Position numbers and translations under genes: made by a program
Assembly (NCBI GenBank): GCA_963575655.1
Contig: CAUYTY010000194.1
Span: 1-32,952, forward strand
Direction: 5' to 3'
Source of the DNA: Gammaproteobacteria bacterium
GTDB lineage: Bacteria; Pseudomonadota; Gammaproteobacteria; CAIRSR01
Length of the DNA: 32,952 nt
Notes under the pieces: generated by a model
What the model was told of the DNA's origin: nothing
The model's database searches: none
Seen by the model: only the letters and a program-made list of their open reading frames with translations
Part shown: piece after piece, positions 7,363 through 26,700 of the stretch
Position numbering within the stretch: the first letter of the stretch is position 1
Layout: every line of letters starts with the position of its first letter

Positions 7363-7807
7363 GAGGTGAAAATATTCTTTTGGATCATGGCTGGTGTGAT
7401 GAGGGAGGGGAAGGGAATGGCGACTGGCGCGTGGCAAAGGTGAGGTGAGTAAGTCCTACCTGGCGTGCGGCGTCCATTATGGTCACGACCGACTGGTGAG
7501 GCGCATGACCATCCGCATTAACCACGACCAATAAGTCTTGTTCGTTGGTGGCGTTCGGAGAGGAGAGGGGACGGGAGCGAGATTTTTCAATGGTCTCGAC
7601 CGCCTCCTGCAATGCCGCACGTATCGTCGCGGGGTCCTGATCAGCCAACGCCCGTTCGCCTTGATGCTCGGTCAGATAGTAACGACCCTGGGCATCTATC
7701 GTCACTTCAATCATGCGCTCTTCGTGGGGGGGCTGGCCGGACTCCGCTGTGGGTAGGTCGAGCGAGATCTCGGTCGCCCGGTTAAAACTGGTGGTGACCA
7801 TGAAAAA
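7363..7807. repeat. Long direct repeat, copy 1 (3' part of exbD), msbA-proximal
   Basis: 445 bp matching 10113-10563 in the same orientation. Positions 7481-7807 are identical by eye to 10237-10563 (327 bp). The remaining stretch next to msbA (7363-7480) differs at many positions and by small indels, for example ATCATG added in the other copy. Homology stops abruptly at 7807/7808 (CCATGAAAAA then ATACTTT). Confidence 0.92.
7385..7807 (-). pseudogene. exbD: Truncated exbD (C-terminal part only)
   Basis: Encodes FFMVTTSFNRATEISLDLPT through the periplasmic domain to the stop, but lacks the first 29 or so residues of the intact copy, including the membrane helix and its essential aspartate region (SLIDVVFNLLL). 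An ATG at 7834 would give a 149 aa ORF whose first residues (MVYHLRIKY) come from the inserted DNA. Without the membrane anchor it cannot work as an ExbD-type proton-channel subunit. Its tail reads RQSPFPSPPSSHQP, against RQPPSSPSPSLRQP in the intact copy. Confidence 0.85.
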
Positions 7808-8501: not shown

Positions 8502-10079
8502 ATGCATTTCTTTAACACCGAAGGCCCGAACCGGGCCAATGATCATTACTGTCTCCCCCCTCTGCAACGCTGGGATCTGGAAGAAATCCTGGACCTAATC
8601 GACCAGAAAAAATATTTCCTGCTGCACGCCCCTCGGCAAACCGGCAAGACCACCTGTCTGCTGGCGTTGATGGAGCATTTGAATCGAGAGGGACGCTACC
8701 GGGCGTTGTATGCCAACATCGAAACTGCCCAGGCAGCACGGGAGAATGTGACTCTGGCCATGACCGGCATCGTTCAAGCCCTGGCCAACAGCGCCCGTCT
8801 GTGGCTGAAAGACCCCCACGCCGAGGCGATCGCGCGCAGTGTGCGGGCTGACCATGCCGCAACGGTCGCCTTGGAACAGTTCTTGGCCCATTGGTGCGAA
8901 CAGTCACCCTTGCCGGTGGTCCTGCTGCTCGACGAGGTCGACGCCCTGATTGGTGACACCTTGATTTCGTTGCTGCGCCAACTGCGCGCCGGTTACCCCC
9001 AGCGGCCCCGAAGCTTTCCCCAGACGGTGATCCTGTGCGGGGTACGGGATCTGTGCGACTACCGCATCCACGCCAGTTCCGAGTCTTCCCCAATTACCGG
9101 CGGCAGCGCCTTCAACATCAAGGCCAAATCGTTACGATTGGGTGATTTCACGGAGGCCGAAGTTAGCTTGCTACTTCAAGCGCATACCCAAGAGACTGGC
9201 CAGGTCTTTACCCCGGAGGCGCTGGCGCAGGTTTGGACCCTAACGCTTGGCCAGCCTTGGCTGGTCAATGCCCTGGCCTACGAGACCTGTTTCGAGATGC
9301 GTGAGGGGCGCGATCGCAGTCGAGCCATTACCCGCGACGTGATCGACCAGGCGAAGGAAAATCTGATTCTGCGGCGGGTGACGCATTTGGATCAGTTGGC
9401 CGACAAACTGCGCGAGCCGAGGGTACGCCGGGTCATTGAGCCGATGCTGGCCGGTACCGCCCTTGGCGAGGTACCCGAGGAGGAACGGAGTTATCTGGTC
9501 GACCTGGGTCTACTGCGCCGGGATGACGGTAGCGGCGGATTGGTGATCGCCAACCCCATTTATCGGGAAGTGCTGCCGCGCGCCTTGGCCGGCGGACCCC
9601 AGGATTCGCTGCCCCGTATCACCCCAACTTGGCTAAATGCGGATGGCAGCCTGAACTCGTTGCAGTTGCTTGAAGCCTTTCTGCGTTTCTGGCGTCAACA
9701 CGGCCAGCCATTGCTCGGTAGTGCGCCCTATCACGAGATCGCCCCCCATCTGGTGCTGATGGCCTTTTTGCATCGAGTCGTCAATGGTCACGGTACCCTG
9801 GAGCGCGAATACGCCATCGGGGCCGGTCGGATGGATCTATGCCTACGCTACGGAACGGTAACGCTCGCCATCGAATTGAAGGTCTGGCGCAATGGCGAGC
9901 CGGATCCCTTGAATGAGGGACTGACCCAATTGGATGGCTATCTGGCCGGACTGGGCCTACCCGGCGGCTGGCTGATGATCTTCGATCGCCGCGCCGGACA
10001 GCCGCCGATCCGTGACCGCACCACCTGCACCGAGGTCACCAGTCCCAAGGGTCGGCAAGTTATCGTGGTGCGTGCCTGA
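8502..10079 (+). CDS. AAA-like ATPase with C-terminal PD-(D/E)XK nuclease domain
   Basis: 525 aa, cytosolic. Walker A APRQTGKT at 43-50 and Walker B VVLLLDEVDAL at 139-149 define an ORC/STAND-like AAA module. A middle helical, winged-helix-like part (YLVDLGLLRRD, NPIYREVLPRAL) follows. The C-terminal end has the nuclease pattern: E437, D445 in GRMDL, E458 and K460 in IELKVW, then QLDGYL. Such ATPase-nuclease proteins are often multicopy in environmental genomes and of unproven function, possibly mobile or defensive. It opens opposite to the exb-msb operon it interrupts. ATG is preceded by GAGGAA 9 bases upstream. The 700 bp before it is non-coding and hairpin-rich. The domains are sure, the activity untested. 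Confidence 0.82.
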   Translation: MHFFNTEGPNRANDHYCLPPLQRWDLEEILDLIDQKKYFLLHAPRQTGKTTCLLALMEHLNREGRYRALYANIETAQAARENVTLAMTGIVQALANSARLWLKDPHAEAIARSVRADHAATVALEQFLAHWCEQSPLPVVLLLDEVDALIGDTLISLLRQLRAGYPQRPRSFPQTVILCGVRDLCDYRIHASSESSPITGGSAFNIKAKSLRLGDFTEAEVSLLLQAHTQETGQVFTPEALAQVWTLTLGQPWLVNALAYETCFEMREGRDRSRAITRDVIDQAKENLILRRVTHLDQLADKLREPRVRRVIEPMLAGTALGEVPEEERSYLVDLGLLRRDDGSGGLVIANPIYREVLPRALAGGPQDSLPRITPTWLNADGSLNSLQLLEAFLRFWRQHGQPLLGSAPYHEIAPHLVLMAFLHRVVNGHGTLEREYAIGAGRMDLCLRYGTVTLAIELKVWRNGEPDPLNEGLTQLDGYLAGLGLPGGWLMIFDRRAGQPPIRDRTTCTEVTSPKGRQVIVVRA

Positions 10080-10112: not shown

Positions 10113-10563
10113 GAGGTGAAAATATTATTTTGGATCATGATCATGGCTGGCGTAGTGAGGGAGAGGGAGAGGATGGTGGCTGGCGCGTGGCGAAGGTGAG
10201 GTGGGTAAGTCCTACCTGGCGTGCGGCGTCCATCACGGTCACGACCGACTGGTGAGGCGCATGACCATCCGCATTAACCACGACCAATAAGTCTTGTTCG
10301 TTGGTGGCGTTCGGAGAGGAGAGGGGACGGGAGCGAGATTTTTCAATGGTCTCGACCGCCTCCTGCAATGCCGCACGTATCGTCGCGGGGTCCTGATCAG
10401 CCAACGCCCGTTCGCCTTGATGCTCGGTCAGATAGTAACGACCCTGGGCATCTATCGTCACTTCAATCATGCGCTCTTCGTGGGGGGGCTGGCCGGACTC
10501 CGCTGTGGGTAGGTCGAGCGAGATCTCGGTCGCCCGGTTAAAACTGGTGGTGACCATGAAAAA
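10113..10563. repeat. Long direct repeat, copy 2 (within intact exbD)
   Basis: 451 bp partner of 7363-7807. Its right limit is inside exbD at CCATGAAAAA/GAGCAGC, its left limit just past the exbD stop at GAGGTGAAAATATT. Together the copies bound the unit 7808-10112. Confidence 0.92.
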
Positions 10564-17634: not shown

Positions 17635-18507
17635 ATGGCAGATTGGTCGGACATCCAGCCGATTGTAGAGCAGCCGGTGAGCCGTCGCCAGTTTCTGAAG
17701 CTGGGGGGTGCGGTACAGTTGGGTCTTTTTACCGGTATGGGGGGACTGGCCGCAAATTTGCTTTTGCCCTCGTCGGAGGCCTTGGCACGTACCGAAAAGA
17801 ATCACCAAAAAGTATCGAATCACAAAGAAAATAATCAGCTTGGTCACCACCGCCAGGATTCCCACCATTCCAAAGATGTTCACACTAAGGGGCATGATTC
17901 CAGGGAGGTTCATGCCAAGGATCATCATTCCAAGGACATTCATATCAAGGGCCATAATTCTAAGGAGGTTCATGCCAAGGACCATGATTCCAAGGATCAT
18001 CATTCCAAGGTGGTTCACGTCAAGGACCATCATTCCAGGGATCGTCATCAGGCACGCCACAACAGGGAACGCATCTTGCGTCTCCACAATATTCATACCG
18101 ATGAGACGGTGAATGCGGTCTACTGGTCGCAGGGACGTTATGTTGCGGGGGGACTCAAAGAATTAAATTTCTTAATGCGTGATCACTACACTGGCGAGAT
18201 GGTGAATATTGATCCTAGGCTTTTTGACCTTCTCTATGCCTTGTGTGGTCGAGTCAATTACGGTAAGCCGTTTCACGTCCTTTCGGGTTATCGTTGCCCA
18301 ACGACCAATGCCATGCTTCGCGAACAGAGTGATGGCGTAGCCTCACACAGCTTGCACATGGATGGAATGGCGGTGGACCTGCGTGCCCCGGGGATGCGTA
18401 CGCGCTATCTACATAAGGCTGCGATGCAAATGCAATCTGGTGGTGTTGGTTATTATCCAGATTCTGACTTTGTTCATGTAGACACTGGGCCGATACGTTA
18501 CTGGTAG
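17635..18507 (+). CDS. ycbK: YcbK-family (DUF882) Tat-exported zinc peptidase-like protein with His-rich repeat linker
   Basis: 290 aa. Twin-arginine signal [10 protein letters not shown] at 16-25, hydrophobic to about 46, cleavage near SEALA. Residues 70-141 are a His/Lys/Asp-rich linker of degenerate decapeptides such as [10 protein letters not shown] and [10 protein letters not shown]. The catalytic-type domain follows: [20 protein letters not shown] and the metal-ligand pattern [12 protein letters not shown] (H241, D248) with H281 in FVHVDTG. This resembles M15 D-Ala-D-Ala peptidases, so a peptidoglycan-trimming role beside ldtD is likely. The E. coli ycbB-ycbK pair has the same order. 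The long linker is unusual; family members normally have a short one. Confidence 0.85.
17863..18042 (+). repeat. In-frame 30 bp minisatellite encoding His-rich decapeptides
   Basis: About six units with a 30 base period (consensus CATCATTCCAAGGANGTTCA, then TGCCAAGGAC) and one half unit (CATGATTCCAAGGAT). Two alternating subtypes, ending in KG or KD, suggest a 60 bp duplication step. It codes for [H][H/D/N]SK[D/E][V/I]Hx K[G/D]. Confidence 0.9.
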
Positions 18508-22101: not shown

Positions 22102-23109
22102 ATGAAATTTGAACATTGCAGAAAATGCGTAATTAAAGCTGGGCAGACAGATTTCTTTATTGCGTTAGCCCAGGCGATTTTTAGAAGCCTCCTTGGTTGG
22201 ATATCCGGCAGCATGGGCTTGGTAGTTCAAGGACTCTATTCTTTTGGTGATGCCCTCGGGAAGGGGATTACTCTGATTAGTGTGCAGATTGCCAAACGGC
22301 CTCCCACTAAAACATTCCCATTTGGTTACGGGAAGATTTTGTTTGTCTCTTCTCTTGCGATTAGTTTATGGTTATTATTTGGTGGAATTTCGCTGGGTCT
22401 AACCAGTTTTAATGATATTGAAAGTGTTCAATCAATTCCATCCATTATCACCGTTTGCGGTGTTATATTGTCGGCATTTGCTAGTGAATTGACGTATCTT
22501 TTTCTGACCTGCGTTGCAAAAGAGAACAGCAATGGGACGATCGAATCGTCCGCGATGGATAATCGAGTCGATGCCTTCTCATCAGTGATCGTGCTCTTTG
22601 GTATTGTGTTATCGAACTTGGGTGTTCCTGCGGCTGATCATATCGCTGCGTTTGTCGTTTCTCTAATGGTGATTAGGATTGGTGGGATAATTGCGTGGGA
22701 TGCGATAAAGGGTTTGCTAGATGTCACTGTGTCGCAAGAAAATTTAGATAGAATAGTCCGCATTTCTCGAACAACTTCGGGGGTTCATGACGTAAAATTG
22801 GTTCGAGGTCGCAGTCTCGGTGAGTACTGGGAAATTTACTTGCATATCGCTCTTGACGAAAACATTTCGATTGGAGAAGGGTATGGCATAACGAAGAATA
22901 TTAAAAAACGTATCCAGGAAGGAGTTGAAAAGGTTCAACACGTTTGGATCGTGATCGTCCCGCAAGAACCCGAAAAGGATAAAGAATCTGATTATTGGAA
23001 AGGCCATTTATTCTCGATTCCACGTAGTAAAGTGACCACCAACTCTTCTGCTGATGAATCGGTGGTGGTCCTCGATAACCCACAAAATATCGCCAACAAC
23101 AACCTCTGA
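22102..23109 (+). CDS. Cation diffusion facilitator (CDF) family transporter, MamB-like
   Basis: 335 aa, six predicted membrane helices followed by a cytoplasmic ferredoxin-like domain (about 205-295) and a polar tail. The N-terminal MKFEHCRKC and FPFGYGK, CVAKEN and DNRVDAFSS blocks recall magnetosome MamB more than common zinc exporters. Metal-site positions on helix 2 read Q43, Y46, D50 where MamB-type proteins have D, H, D; helix 5 keeps D153 and D157. CDF proteins export Zn, Fe or Mn by proton antiport. AT-richer than its neighbours. It forms a pair with the CZB gene 9 bp downstream. CDF membership is sure; the MamB link rests on recalled sequence. Confidence 0.8.
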   Translation: MKFEHCRKCVIKAGQTDFFIALAQAIFRSLLGWISGSMGLVVQGLYSFGDALGKGITLISVQIAKRPPTKTFPFGYGKILFVSSLAISLWLLFGGISLGLTSFNDIESVQSIPSIITVCGVILSAFASELTYLFLTCVAKENSNGTIESSAMDNRVDAFSSVIVLFGIVLSNLGVPAADHIAAFVVSLMVIRIGGIIAWDAIKGLLDVTVSQENLDRIVRISRTTSGVHDVKLVRGRSLGEYWEIYLHIALDENISIGEGYGITKNIKKRIQEGVEKVQHVWIVIVPQEPEKDKESDYWKGHLFSIPRSKVTTNSSADESVVVLDNPQNIANNNL

Positions 23110-23118
23110 GAAATTCTA

Positions 23119-23469
23119 ATGATAGACATATCTAGGGCGCGGCTAGTTCATTTGAAGTGGTTGTTGCAACTGGAAAAGTTGTTGCGACAAGAAACCATTC
23201 CTCACTTGCAATCGTACAAGTCGTGCGATCTTGGAATGTGGCTTTATCAAGGAGGGATAAAAAAATATGGGAAATATCCAGAGATGTCATTTCTCGAAAA
23301 ACGCCACAAACATTTTCATGAAACAGCAGACTTGCTGGTCGATCTTTTCAAGGAACGCAATTATGTGGAAGCGGAAGTTGCTCTTGATGAACTGAAACGC
23401 AACAGCCAAGACTTGATCTTCATGTTGACCATGATCGAGTATCGCATGTCAGAAAATGTGAACTCTTAG
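23119..23469 (+). CDS. Stand-alone CZB (chemoreceptor zinc-binding) domain protein
   Basis: 116 aa, cytosolic, all helical. It shows the CZB pattern: H11 (RLVHLKW), C36 in SCDLGMWLYQGG, and H63 and H67 in KRHKHFHETADLL, the usual His-Cys-His-His zinc site. CZB domains normally sit at the end of chemoreceptors or diguanylate cyclases and sense zinc; here it is the whole protein. Nine bases after the CDF stop, so surely co-transcribed. It may sense or buffer the metal moved by the transporter. No ribosome site stronger than GAGAAATTC is seen. Confidence 0.75.
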   Translation: MIDISRARLVHLKWLLQLEKLLRQETIPHLQSYKSCDLGMWLYQGGIKKYGKYPEMSFLEKRHKHFHETADLLVDLFKERNYVEAEVALDELKRNSQDLIFMLTMIEYRMSENVNS

Positions 23470-23521: not shown

Positions 23522-23621
23522 AACCAAAGCTGCTACTCTAGCGCGCTTTTCTCCCCTATCCCAGGGGTCCAGGGGAAGAGGGGCTTTTTTGTTTATCGCC
23601 GCAAAGGTGGCAACTTGGGTT
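23522..23621. repeat. AACCC-type short element, variant A, second copy
   Basis: 100 bp. Left end AACCAAAGCTGCTACTCTA then GCGCG. The interior CCCCTATCCCAGGGGTCCAG and GGGGAAGAGGGGCTTTTTTG form a hairpin with a T-run. The right end is AGGTGGCAACTTGGGTT. Its layout matches 12439-12530. Abuts element B, sharing AATCT between them. Confidence 0.65.
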
Positions 23622-23626
23622 AATCT

Positions 23627-23774
23627 AACCCAAGTTGCCGCCTACTTGCCCCCTTCCCCAGCCCTCCCCGTAAACGGGGAGGGAGTAGGCCGCAGACCTC
23701 CCCCCGTTTACGGGGGGATTGAGGGGGGACGATTGGATGCGATCCCGAATTTTGAATAGGTGGCAACTTGGGTT
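23627..23774 (+). mobile_element. AACCC-type element, variant B, copy 1
   Basis: 148 bp. Left end AACCCAAGTTGCCGCCTA, right end TAGGTGGCAACTTGGGTT: an 18 bp inverted repeat with one mismatch. Flanked by AATCT on both sides (23622-23626, 23775-23779). The interior has two hairpins with CCCCGTAAACGGGG cores. Nearly the same sequence recurs inverted at 31593-31739 and directly at 32882 to the window end. No coding capacity. The last two bases plus the first flanking A form the sbcC stop codon. Confidence 0.82.
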
Positions 23775-26700
23775 AATCTAATATCCTGACACGGCTTCGC
23801 CCATTACCCAAGGCCTGCACGCGGACCTGAACGCCAATGCGTTCGGTGAGTGCTGGGACATGGGAAATGATACCTACCTTGCGCCCTTGCGCTTGGAGGG
23901 CATCCAAGGCAGCGAGGGCGATATCTAGCGTATCCGGGTCCAGGCTACCGAATCCTTCGTCGATGAATAGTGATTCCACTTGAGCCGTCTGCGAGGATAA
24001 CGAGGCCAAACCCAAGGCCAAGGCCAGGGACACTAGAAAAGTTTCCCCTCCCGACAAACTATGAACGCCGCGAATCTCATTCCCTAATTCCCGATCGATT
24101 ACTTGTAATTCCAATTCAGCCCCCGGAACGCGGGCGAGGCGATAACGTCGGGCCAGATCCTCCAAATGACGATTGGCATGGGTAAGCAAAACCTCCAAGG
24201 TCAGACTTTGGGCGTAGGTTTTGAATTTGTTCCCATCCGCCGAACCGATTAATTCTCGAAGTATCTCCCAGCGTCGCCACTCCTGTTCTTTGGCCTCACA
24301 GGCGGTAAGTAGCTCGGCGCTCTGACTACGGCGTTGATCGTCGGACCGCAATCGCAATTGAACATTGGCAAGGTCTTCCTGCATCGTCGCTTCCTTTTGC
24401 CGGGCCTGCTCCAAGGCTGCGTCCACCTCGGTTACGGCGAGGGTTGGCGTATTCTGGGTGGCGAAGTCTTCTCGCTCGCGTCGTCGGTCGGCGAAGCGAG
24501 TACTCGCGGTCTCTACCCCACGCTCCAGGGCATCCAACGCCGCCCGCTCCTGTTCCAACCAATCGGTCCCCTGCTCTAGGTGTTTCCGTAGAGTGGACAG
24601 GTCTATGTGATGGGCAGCGAGCAAGAAGGTGAGTTCGGTTTGAGCGGTCTCATGCGCACGGTGCTGTCGCTCTCGGTCGTCAACACCGAGGGTGCGTTGG
24701 GTCTGGGCCGCGATCAGGGCCTCCTTGGCCTGACCCAGGGCCGTGGCTGCACGCTCCTCAGTAACTTGGGCCTGTCTCAGCTCGGTTTGGAGTCCCTTTT
24801 CCACGGCATCCGCCGGACGGCCATCCAACAATAACGCACGCTCTTGAGCCAAAACCGTCGCAGCGGCCTCGGCCTCGGTCGCTTTTTCGACGGACTGGCG
24901 TGCGGTCTCTTGGGTCAATCGAGCGGTAGTATCAGCCTGCGCCACCTCGGTTTGGCCACGAGCGATGGCCTGCGCCAGATCGGCAAGGGTCGCTTGATGG
25001 TCGCGATAGGCGCGAACATTCGCCTCACAACGAGTACGAAAGGCCGCCGAGTCGGCATCCAGGGCACTTTGCCAGCACTCGATGCCTGCCAAAGGAACGG
25101 CCAACGTCTCCCGTGCCGACGCTACCTCTTGAGTCTTGCGAGTGACCTCGACCACGGCGGCACTGCGGCGCTCGGTGACCGTGGCGGTCTTGTGTTCCAA
25201 ATCCGCCAAGTTGCTACGGGCCGTTGTCTCGGCACGAATAGCCGTGTCCAGGGCGGTTCGAGCGCTAGTAATGGCGGTCTGTGCGGCGCGTGCGGCGGTC
25301 TCGGCGTGGGCAATGGCCGCAAGTTGGCGGCGTAACTCCTCCTCTCGAACACTCAGACGTTGTGGAAGGTCTGGAGCGAGGGGTCCCTCCTTTTCCCCCG
25401 TATCTTCTTGCCCCGCCGCCAACGGAAAAGGCGCCAACGCCCAAGCCCGCTCCGCCTCCGTGAATGCCATCGCCCGGGTATCCGCCTGCATCTGTTGTAC
25501 GTTGGTCTGGTGCTGGGCCGCCTCGCGGGTGGTCTGGGCACGAGTCAACTCGGTGGTAAGTTTTTCCAGTGCTTGACGTAGCTCCGCCGCTCGTTGTCGT
25601 TGGTCTTTTACTAACTCATCGAAGGATGTCGAGAGATGAGTCCAGGGATGAGTCGAGGAGCCACACACCGGGCAGGGGGCGCCATCGCTGAGACGAGCCC
25701 TCAAGGCCGTCACATCCTTACCAGCGGCAAGCATCGCCCGTTCTAGGGCCGCCTCCGCCTCGCTATAGGCGGCACGCATCGGGACCAATTCGACCGTACA
25801 ACGCTGTATCACCCCCTCAGCCGTTGCTGCCTCGGTTAGGGCCGTATCACGCGCCGCCAGAGCCTCATCCAACCCGTGACGCGTACGACGTATCGCCGCG
25901 ACCTGGTCGGCACAGCGTCGCACCTGTTCACGCTCACTCTCCAGCAGCACGCGGCGACGCGCCAATTCCGCGCTATCGTGATGGGCTGCCGCTGCTTCAC
26001 ACGCCGTTAGATTGGCTTGTTCTCGTTCTAAGGCGGCGGCGCTGGCTCTTGCCGCTTGGCGGGCGGGATCCAATCGAGCAACAAGACCATTGATCTCCCG
26101 TTCCGCAGTAGTAACGGCCCGCTGGGCGTCTCGTTCCGCCTCCAGTAGGGTGCGAATGCGACGTAACTCGGCGTCCCAACGCGGCCATTGATCGGCTAGG
26201 TGGGCGTGATGGGCATGGGTAGTGAGCCAGTCGGCCGTCGCGGCGTGTTGCCGCTCGCGTTCAACCTGGATCTGGGCGGCAACCTGGTGGACCTTGGCAA
26301 CCTCCTGAGCGACACGCTGCGTCGTTGTGGCCTCTGCGAACGCCACCTCGTGCCGGCGGCGGGCATCGATCAAACGAACATCAAGGGCACGCGCACGCAG
26401 TAGATCGGGGGTGATTTGGGAGATACGGGTAGCGACGGCGATCAACGCGGTGCGAACAGCATCCAGGTTTCCCTGAGCGGTCGCGACGGCTTGGGATGCC
26501 TGTTCTTCGGTAGCGAGGGCGCTAGCGAGCACACCTTCGGCATGGGTCAGGGCGGCGCGATAGCGATCAAGGTCCGCCAGGGGGATACGCAAGGCCTGAG
26601 CACGGGAGACCTCCTGCCAGGCGAGCTGTCGAGGGGCAGCAACGGATCGCTGTGCCGTAGCAGCGGTAAGCTCGGTCGCGGCCACGGTTTCGGCGTTGGT

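Follow-up and report, generated by a model that had tools for sequence, protein, structure and literature searches.

The closest described relatives of the transporter considered here are the magnetosome CDFs. Two of them, MamB and MamM, are essential, and the membrane site of MamM, tested by mutation, comprises Y46, D50, H155 and D159 (PMC3905215). MamV of strain AMB-1 is accessory to these two; its gene is described as one of unknown function (PMC10470508), its deletion had no observed effect (PMC4306944), and mamV is viewed as a recent acquisition of Magnetospirillum that the cocci MC-1 and IT-1 do not have (PMC3934378). More distant are the FieF/YiiP exporters, which have the superfamily and topology in common with the magnetosome CDFs and build their metal site from D46 and D50 on TM2 and from H and D on TM5.

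The second protein of interest belongs to the CZB family, whose domains as a rule regulate chemoreceptors or enzymes of c-di-GMP turnover; known members signal zinc, and whether the ligand cysteine is oxidized, to the output domain (PMC8262984). Control by zinc and redox is established for DgcZ and TlpD, and the CZB of DgcZ, which acts as a regulator, has a sub-femtomolar affinity for zinc; 27.1% of CZB sequences carry no further domain (PMC8262984).

Here we describe a locus in which a CDF gene is directly followed by a gene for a stand-alone CZB protein. It lies in a window, i.e., the whole stretch of DNA analyzed, of 32,952 nucleotides. As the sequence-only reading of this window had proposed, the two genes are on the same strand and the stop codon of the first is separated from the start codon of the second by nine bases; their features are collected in Table 1.

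Table 1. Features of the CDF-CZB locus, with positions in the window
Feature	Position	Strand	Evidence
CDF transporter of the CZB-linked clade, 335 aa; six TM helices and a cytoplasmic ZT_dimer domain	22102..23109	+	Pfam, NCBIfam, ML tree, AF2 topology (low confidence)
TM2 half of the CDF metal site, QGLYSFGD (Q43, Y46, D50)	22228..22251	+	Invariant set in sampled CZB-linked CDFs
TM5 half of the CDF metal site, DNRVD (D153, D157)	22558..22572	+	Sequence comparison
CDF C-terminal tail motif YWxxHLF (298-304), proposed CZB docking motif	22993..23013	+	Invariance, clade-specific
Stand-alone CZB protein, 116 aa, four-helix bundle	23119..23469	+	Pfam PF13682, AF2, nearest folds
CZB zinc ligand H11	23149..23151	+	Invariant
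CZB zinc ligand C36	23224..23226	+	Invariant
CZB zinc ligands H63 and H67	23305..23319	+	Invariant
CZB helix-4 segment 82-109, proposed partner-binding face	23362..23445	+	Near-invariance confined to CDF-linked CZBs

The window holds no mam genes, and the genes flanking the pair are unremarkable, namely those of a KDO transferase, a nucleotidyl transferase (GalU-like) and, on the opposite strand, an SbcC-like protein. No sigma-70-like promoter was found on the + strand ahead of the CDF gene, where scan counts stayed at chance level, and no insertion scar (tRNA, flanking repeats) is present at the pair. Its GC content, 0.431 for the CDF and 0.416 for the CZB gene against 0.543 for the window, is the lowest of the 19 genes. 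The AT-richness that had suggested acquisition is thus real, and acquisition itself is plausible given this composition and an occurrence that is patchy and restricted to three lineages of magnetotactic bacteria. Elsewhere in the window, a palindromic repeated element (23605-23781), with a 24-nt direct repeat and inverted copies, is located in the intergenic stretch that leads from the pair to the sbcC-like gene. A 300-nt direct repeat (96%) occupies 7383-7682 and 10139-10438, where an N-truncated and a full copy of exbD flank an AAA-ATPase-like ORF (8502-10079), and a DUF882/M15 peptidase (17635-18507) carries before its domain a tract of about 70 residues, made of repeats rich in His, Lys and Asp, that could bind metal.

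In the host genome (G000), which measures 4.2 Mb and is 98% complete, contigs C201 and C41 bear a mam island with mamH, E, K, M, N, P/O-like, A, Q, B, S and T, so that the organism is magnetotactic by gene content. The genome encodes its own MamB and MamM together with a second CDF resembling MamV, one part of which is at the end of C201 and the other on contig C226; the CDF-CZB pair lies outside the mam contigs. The two mam contigs contain overlapping copies of mamH-mamE-mamK-mamM (L019 and L020), frameshifted in C201 and intact in C41, which is probably assembly redundancy. A second CDF/CZB neighborhood of this host is found on contig C197 (L021, 2799-5947), in which a FieF-type CDF gene is divergent from, and some 120 bp away from, that of a chemoreceptor with HAMP and a C-terminal CZB.

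Regarding the transporter, both Cation_efflux (PF01545, E 1.4e-36) and ZT_dimer (PF16916, E 1.2e-9) match above cut-off, and these domains, along with the acidic residues D50, D153 and D157 of TM2 and TM5, whose retention had been pointed out from the sequence, place it in the CDF superfamily. Among the NCBIfam models the best is MamV (NF040994), with 384 bits, followed by MamB (NF033616) with 264, MamM (NF033615) with 170 and FieF with 95; all four scores are below the respective cut-offs of 500, 350, 350 and 420 bits. In a maximum-likelihood tree of 61 CDFs, the protein falls within a clade of 13 CZB-linked members (support 100/99) that joins the AMB-1-type MamV on a common branch (100/99), apart from MamB, MamM, general CDFs and FieF. 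MamB and MamM share the superclade and form clades of their own, and FieF is far outside it. The protein had been described as MamB-like, and the N-terminal CxxC (C6, C9), FPFGYG and DNRVDAFSS that motivated this view are indeed there; the phylogeny and the model scores bear out a magnetosome-type rather than a FieF-type CDF, but it is not the MamB orthologue, as MamB of this host is encoded separately, on contig C201. The AF2 model of the CDF (pLDDT 65) was used for topology and for the disordered tail only.

For these comparisons we take G411 to be AMB-1 and G395 to be MSR-1, with mam synteny as a further guide. The CZB-linked CDFs are sister to AMB-1 MamV and are not nested within it, and the split between the two clades is deep. 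The two have in common the best NCBIfam model, the DNRxD motif of TM5 and a standing accessory to MamB and MamM. They differ in that AMB-1 MamV has H43 and H46, lacks both a CZB partner and the YWxxHLF tail, and is located behind MamT and directly behind MamU, a place in the mamAB operon that the CDF of the window does not occupy. A plain MamV orthologue, in that strict sense, does not fit, because AMB-1 MamV belongs to a different clade and has no CZB. Since NF040994 scores members of both clades highly (562 bits for AMB-1 MamV, 607 bits for the CZB-linked CDF of MSR-1), the database name MamV spans two distinct lineages. In the host's order there is also a second MamV type (L007 1300-2265; L027 1492-2394; L135 7630-8541), in which V43 and L46 replace the usual TM2 residues.

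In and beside the metal site, at positions 43, 46, 50, 153 and 157 (window numbering), CZB-linked CDFs have Q, Y, D, D, D; MamB has D, H, D, D, D; MamM D, Y, D, H, D; AMB-1-type MamV H, H, D, D, D; the second MamV type of the host's order V, L, D, D, D; and FieF T/S, D, D, H, D. Every sampled CZB-linked CDF has Q43, Y46 and D50, a set that differs from those of MamB, MamM, MamV and FieF. The sequence-only reading had counted two of three helix-2 ligands as changed, which overstates the case: Q43 is unusual, but Y46 is the normal ligand of MamM and position 43 lies beside the site, so the site is not one with two lost ligands. Instead, Y46 and D50 match MamM while D153 and D157 match MamB, and the site is MamM-like on TM2 and MamB-like on TM5. 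One diverged CZB-linked paralogue, VK2_b (L124 1480-2454), has ENRxN in place of DNRxD and keeps both its CZB and the tail, as YWxDHLF; judged by these residues, it is possibly a non-transporting form.

The partner is a single-domain protein that matches PF13682 (E 8.3e-10; 39.3 bits against a gathering cut-off of 29.4), and the complete zinc site lacking a receptor domain, as anticipated, is present: its four ligands are invariant across 17 aligned relatives. AF2 predicts a confident four-helix bundle (pLDDT 92.7), and the nearest PDB folds are the CZB of DgcZ (3T9O), with the same His-Cys-His-His ligand set, and the CZB-like MID of DosC (4ZVC), at TM scores of 0.65-0.77. Those domains are fused to a diguanylate cyclase, whereas the window protein stands alone and is encoded with a transporter; likewise, it shares the CZB domain, for which zinc and redox sensing is known in characterized members, with TlpD-type chemoreceptors, but has no receptor. 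A tree sets the magnetosome-cluster CZBs apart from the sampled receptor CZBs, which is a hint only, given the short domain, weak support (by SH-aLRT alone), limited receptor sampling and a midpoint root.

The CDF and CZB genes form a conserved two-gene unit that, within the genomes sampled, occurs in magnetotactic bacteria only. Each of the 15 loci found, which belong to 13 genomes of three lineages, has the two side by side in the same orientation, far more often than chance would allow, and the survey thus found the CZB neighbors whose absence from orthologues, together with a FieF grouping, would have spoken against the pairing. Across 55 genomes of the Magnetospirillum family, the eight CDF matches (E < 1e-130) and the eight CZB matches (E < 1e-60) are in the same eight places. 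Three of the four genomes of the host's order have both genes and the fourth (G232) has neither; among 48 genomes of the class of the Magnetococcales bin, linked pairs occur in G369, G371 and G455, and a divergent one in G431. Genomes without one gene also lack the other, including AMB-1, whose unlinked MamV goes with no such CZB, and in a sample of 385 genomes spread over the class of G372 this CZB was found in the query genome alone. The relatives in the class of the Magnetococcales bin qualify the view of mamV as a recent Magnetospirillum acquisition. The two genes overlap in KR_bin-4016 (by 4 nt) and in G431 (by about 100 nt); at the other extreme, they are separated by about 76 nt. Distances between CDFs and between CZBs correlate closely (Mantel r 0.94, p 0.0001), as is expected from co-inheritance alone. 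Taken together, a CDF lineage of accessory magnetosome type, distinct from MamB, MamM and AMB-1 MamV, that forms a two-gene unit with a CZB is very probable. The literature searched, of partial coverage, holds no relevant report of a CZB with magnetotactic bacteria or with a CDF, and the pair is apparently unreported as such.

The surroundings of the unit in other genomes involve magnetosome and iron transport genes. In MSR-1 the order is CDF-CZB-MamR (131.7 bits, cut-off 100), between mamXY and mamAB and inside the magnetosome island. KR_bin-4016, deposited as an uncultured Thiotrichales bacterium and identical in sequence at this locus to G330 of the host's order, reads mamE-mamA-mamQ-CDF-CZB-tandem CZB, with feoB on the same contig, and G116 reads CDF-CZB-HDOD-FeoB with a PilZ protein also nearby. 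Other CZBs, single or tandem, recur in magnetosome clusters as well, including those of magnetotactic cocci. In G462, which we take to be MC-1, a stand-alone CZB of 138 aa (L199 14088-14504), 37% identical to that of the window, lies in the magnetosome island about 0.7 kb from mamH, and tandem CZBs (about 280-320 aa) are found on mam contigs of at least 10 other genomes of the class of the Magnetococcales bin, beside feoB or feoAB in two. Tandem-CZB loci include L053 11400-12284, L095 4661-5599, L204 12505-13335 and L205 15987-16817; in Magnetospirillum they are beside a MamD/Mms6-like GL-repeat protein. Mms36, considered for its size, is not supported as the identity of the tandem CZB, because the NCBIfam Mms36 model gives no match and the MSR-1 copy is beside feoAB1 and the GL-repeat protein, not behind mmsF.

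Two segments of the pair suggest how the proteins may meet. In the predicted disordered tail of the CDF, after residue 287, the sole invariant positions are Y298, W299, H302, L303 and F304; the motif is absent from MamB, MamM, AMB-1 MamV and FieF, and its exact form is also missing in the divergent G431 pair. In the 11 CDF-linked CZBs, 79% of residues 82-109, in helix 4, are invariant versus 41% of residues 1-81, and the same segment is only 32-39% identical in magnetosome-cluster CZBs without an adjoining CDF. A short tail motif and a constrained helix suggest a docking pair. The explanation we favor, with a probability of roughly 55%, is an accessory CDF for iron or zinc whose CZB partner would sense metal or redox state and dock to it by helix 4 and YWxxHLF. 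The cargo of the CDF would be a divalent metal, in all likelihood Fe(II) but perhaps Zn(II), carried out of the cytoplasm into the magnetosome or periplasm by way of Y46, D50, D153 and D157; the odds that iron is the main substrate are about even. The CZB would be a dedicated cytosolic regulatory subunit holding zinc or a related metal at H11, C36, H63 and H67. Oxidation of C36 or occupancy of the site would decide whether helix 4 binds the tail beside the cytoplasmic dimer domain of the CDF, and docking would open or damp transport. By analogy with known CZBs, which signal zinc and cysteine oxidation to their outputs, the protein would gate the CDF, reporting the metal or redox state of the cytosol to a transporter instead of a chemoreceptor or diguanylate cyclase. 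Direct regulation of this kind has, in our estimate, a one-in-two chance; to our knowledge, the CDF would be the first transporter under CZB control. Points that weigh against this explanation are the MSR-1 deletion strain considered below, the AMB-1 MamV deletion with no observed effect (PMC4306944), the location of the host's pair away from its mam contigs, the inexact tail of the G431 pair, and VK2_b, which retains its CZB with D153 and D157 lost.

Other roles for the CZB have to be weighed against this. A small, soluble, single-domain protein encoded directly behind a transporter, with an invariant 3His-1Cys site, might supply the CDF with metal, as a metallochaperone or buffer, rather than be a sensor. 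We consider this unlikely, since the zinc affinity and regulator role of the DgcZ domain (PMC8262984) are those of a poor donor and the strongest constraint is in helix 4, outside the zinc site. It is similarly unlikely that the CZB acts elsewhere, in chemotaxis, c-di-GMP or magneto-aerotaxis signaling, and merely shares the transcript of the CDF. The usual outputs of CZB domains (PMC8262984), the single and tandem CZBs of magnetosome clusters without this CDF and the HDOD and PilZ proteins near the pair in G116 all fit such a role, but the strict one-to-one linkage to the CDF over three lineages and a helix-4 invariance seen in linked CZBs only do not.

Somewhat less probable still is a dispensable passenger, a horizontally moved pair whose redundant extra CDF has little present function. 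Its patchy presence, its AT-rich DNA and the loss of D153 and D157 in VK2_b are in line with this, as is a deletion in MSR-1: the ΔA4 strain, lacking mgr4106-4146 between mamAB and mamXY, had a wild-type magnetic response, crystal size and crystal number (PMC3197154). By map position, ΔA4 would remove the CDF-CZB pair and ΔA5 (mgr4151-4174) the tandem CZB, and the wild-type phenotype of ΔA4 then makes the role of the pair accessory or conditional at most in MSR-1. Against a passenger, the metal site, the tail motif and especially the CZB are tightly conserved over large distances (between the window and MSR-1, 51% identity for the CDF and 67% for the CZB), which indicates purifying selection. 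An ordinary exporter of the FieF type that merely has an unrelated CZB gene next to it, for which superfamily membership and the 95-bit match of the FieF model could be cited, is refuted by the tree and the neighborhood survey and, in view of the MamV and MamB scores and the recurrent adjacency, has next to no probability left.

Returning to the CZB as a sensing partner of the CDF, the idea may be extended, tentatively and at well below even odds, to CZBs as an unrecognized metal- and redox-sensing layer of the magnetosome, in which a CZB subunit would gate the accessory CDF and single or tandem CZBs would do likewise for iron transport by MamB/MamV or FeoB. A transporter with a CZB sensor of its own, if true, would be a direct control point for adjusting magnetosome iron flow to metal and oxygen status, and the pair is present in MSR-1, a workable model organism. 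Transporters would then join the outputs already known for CZB domains, and some of the CZB sequences without a second domain (PMC8262984) could be explained in this way.
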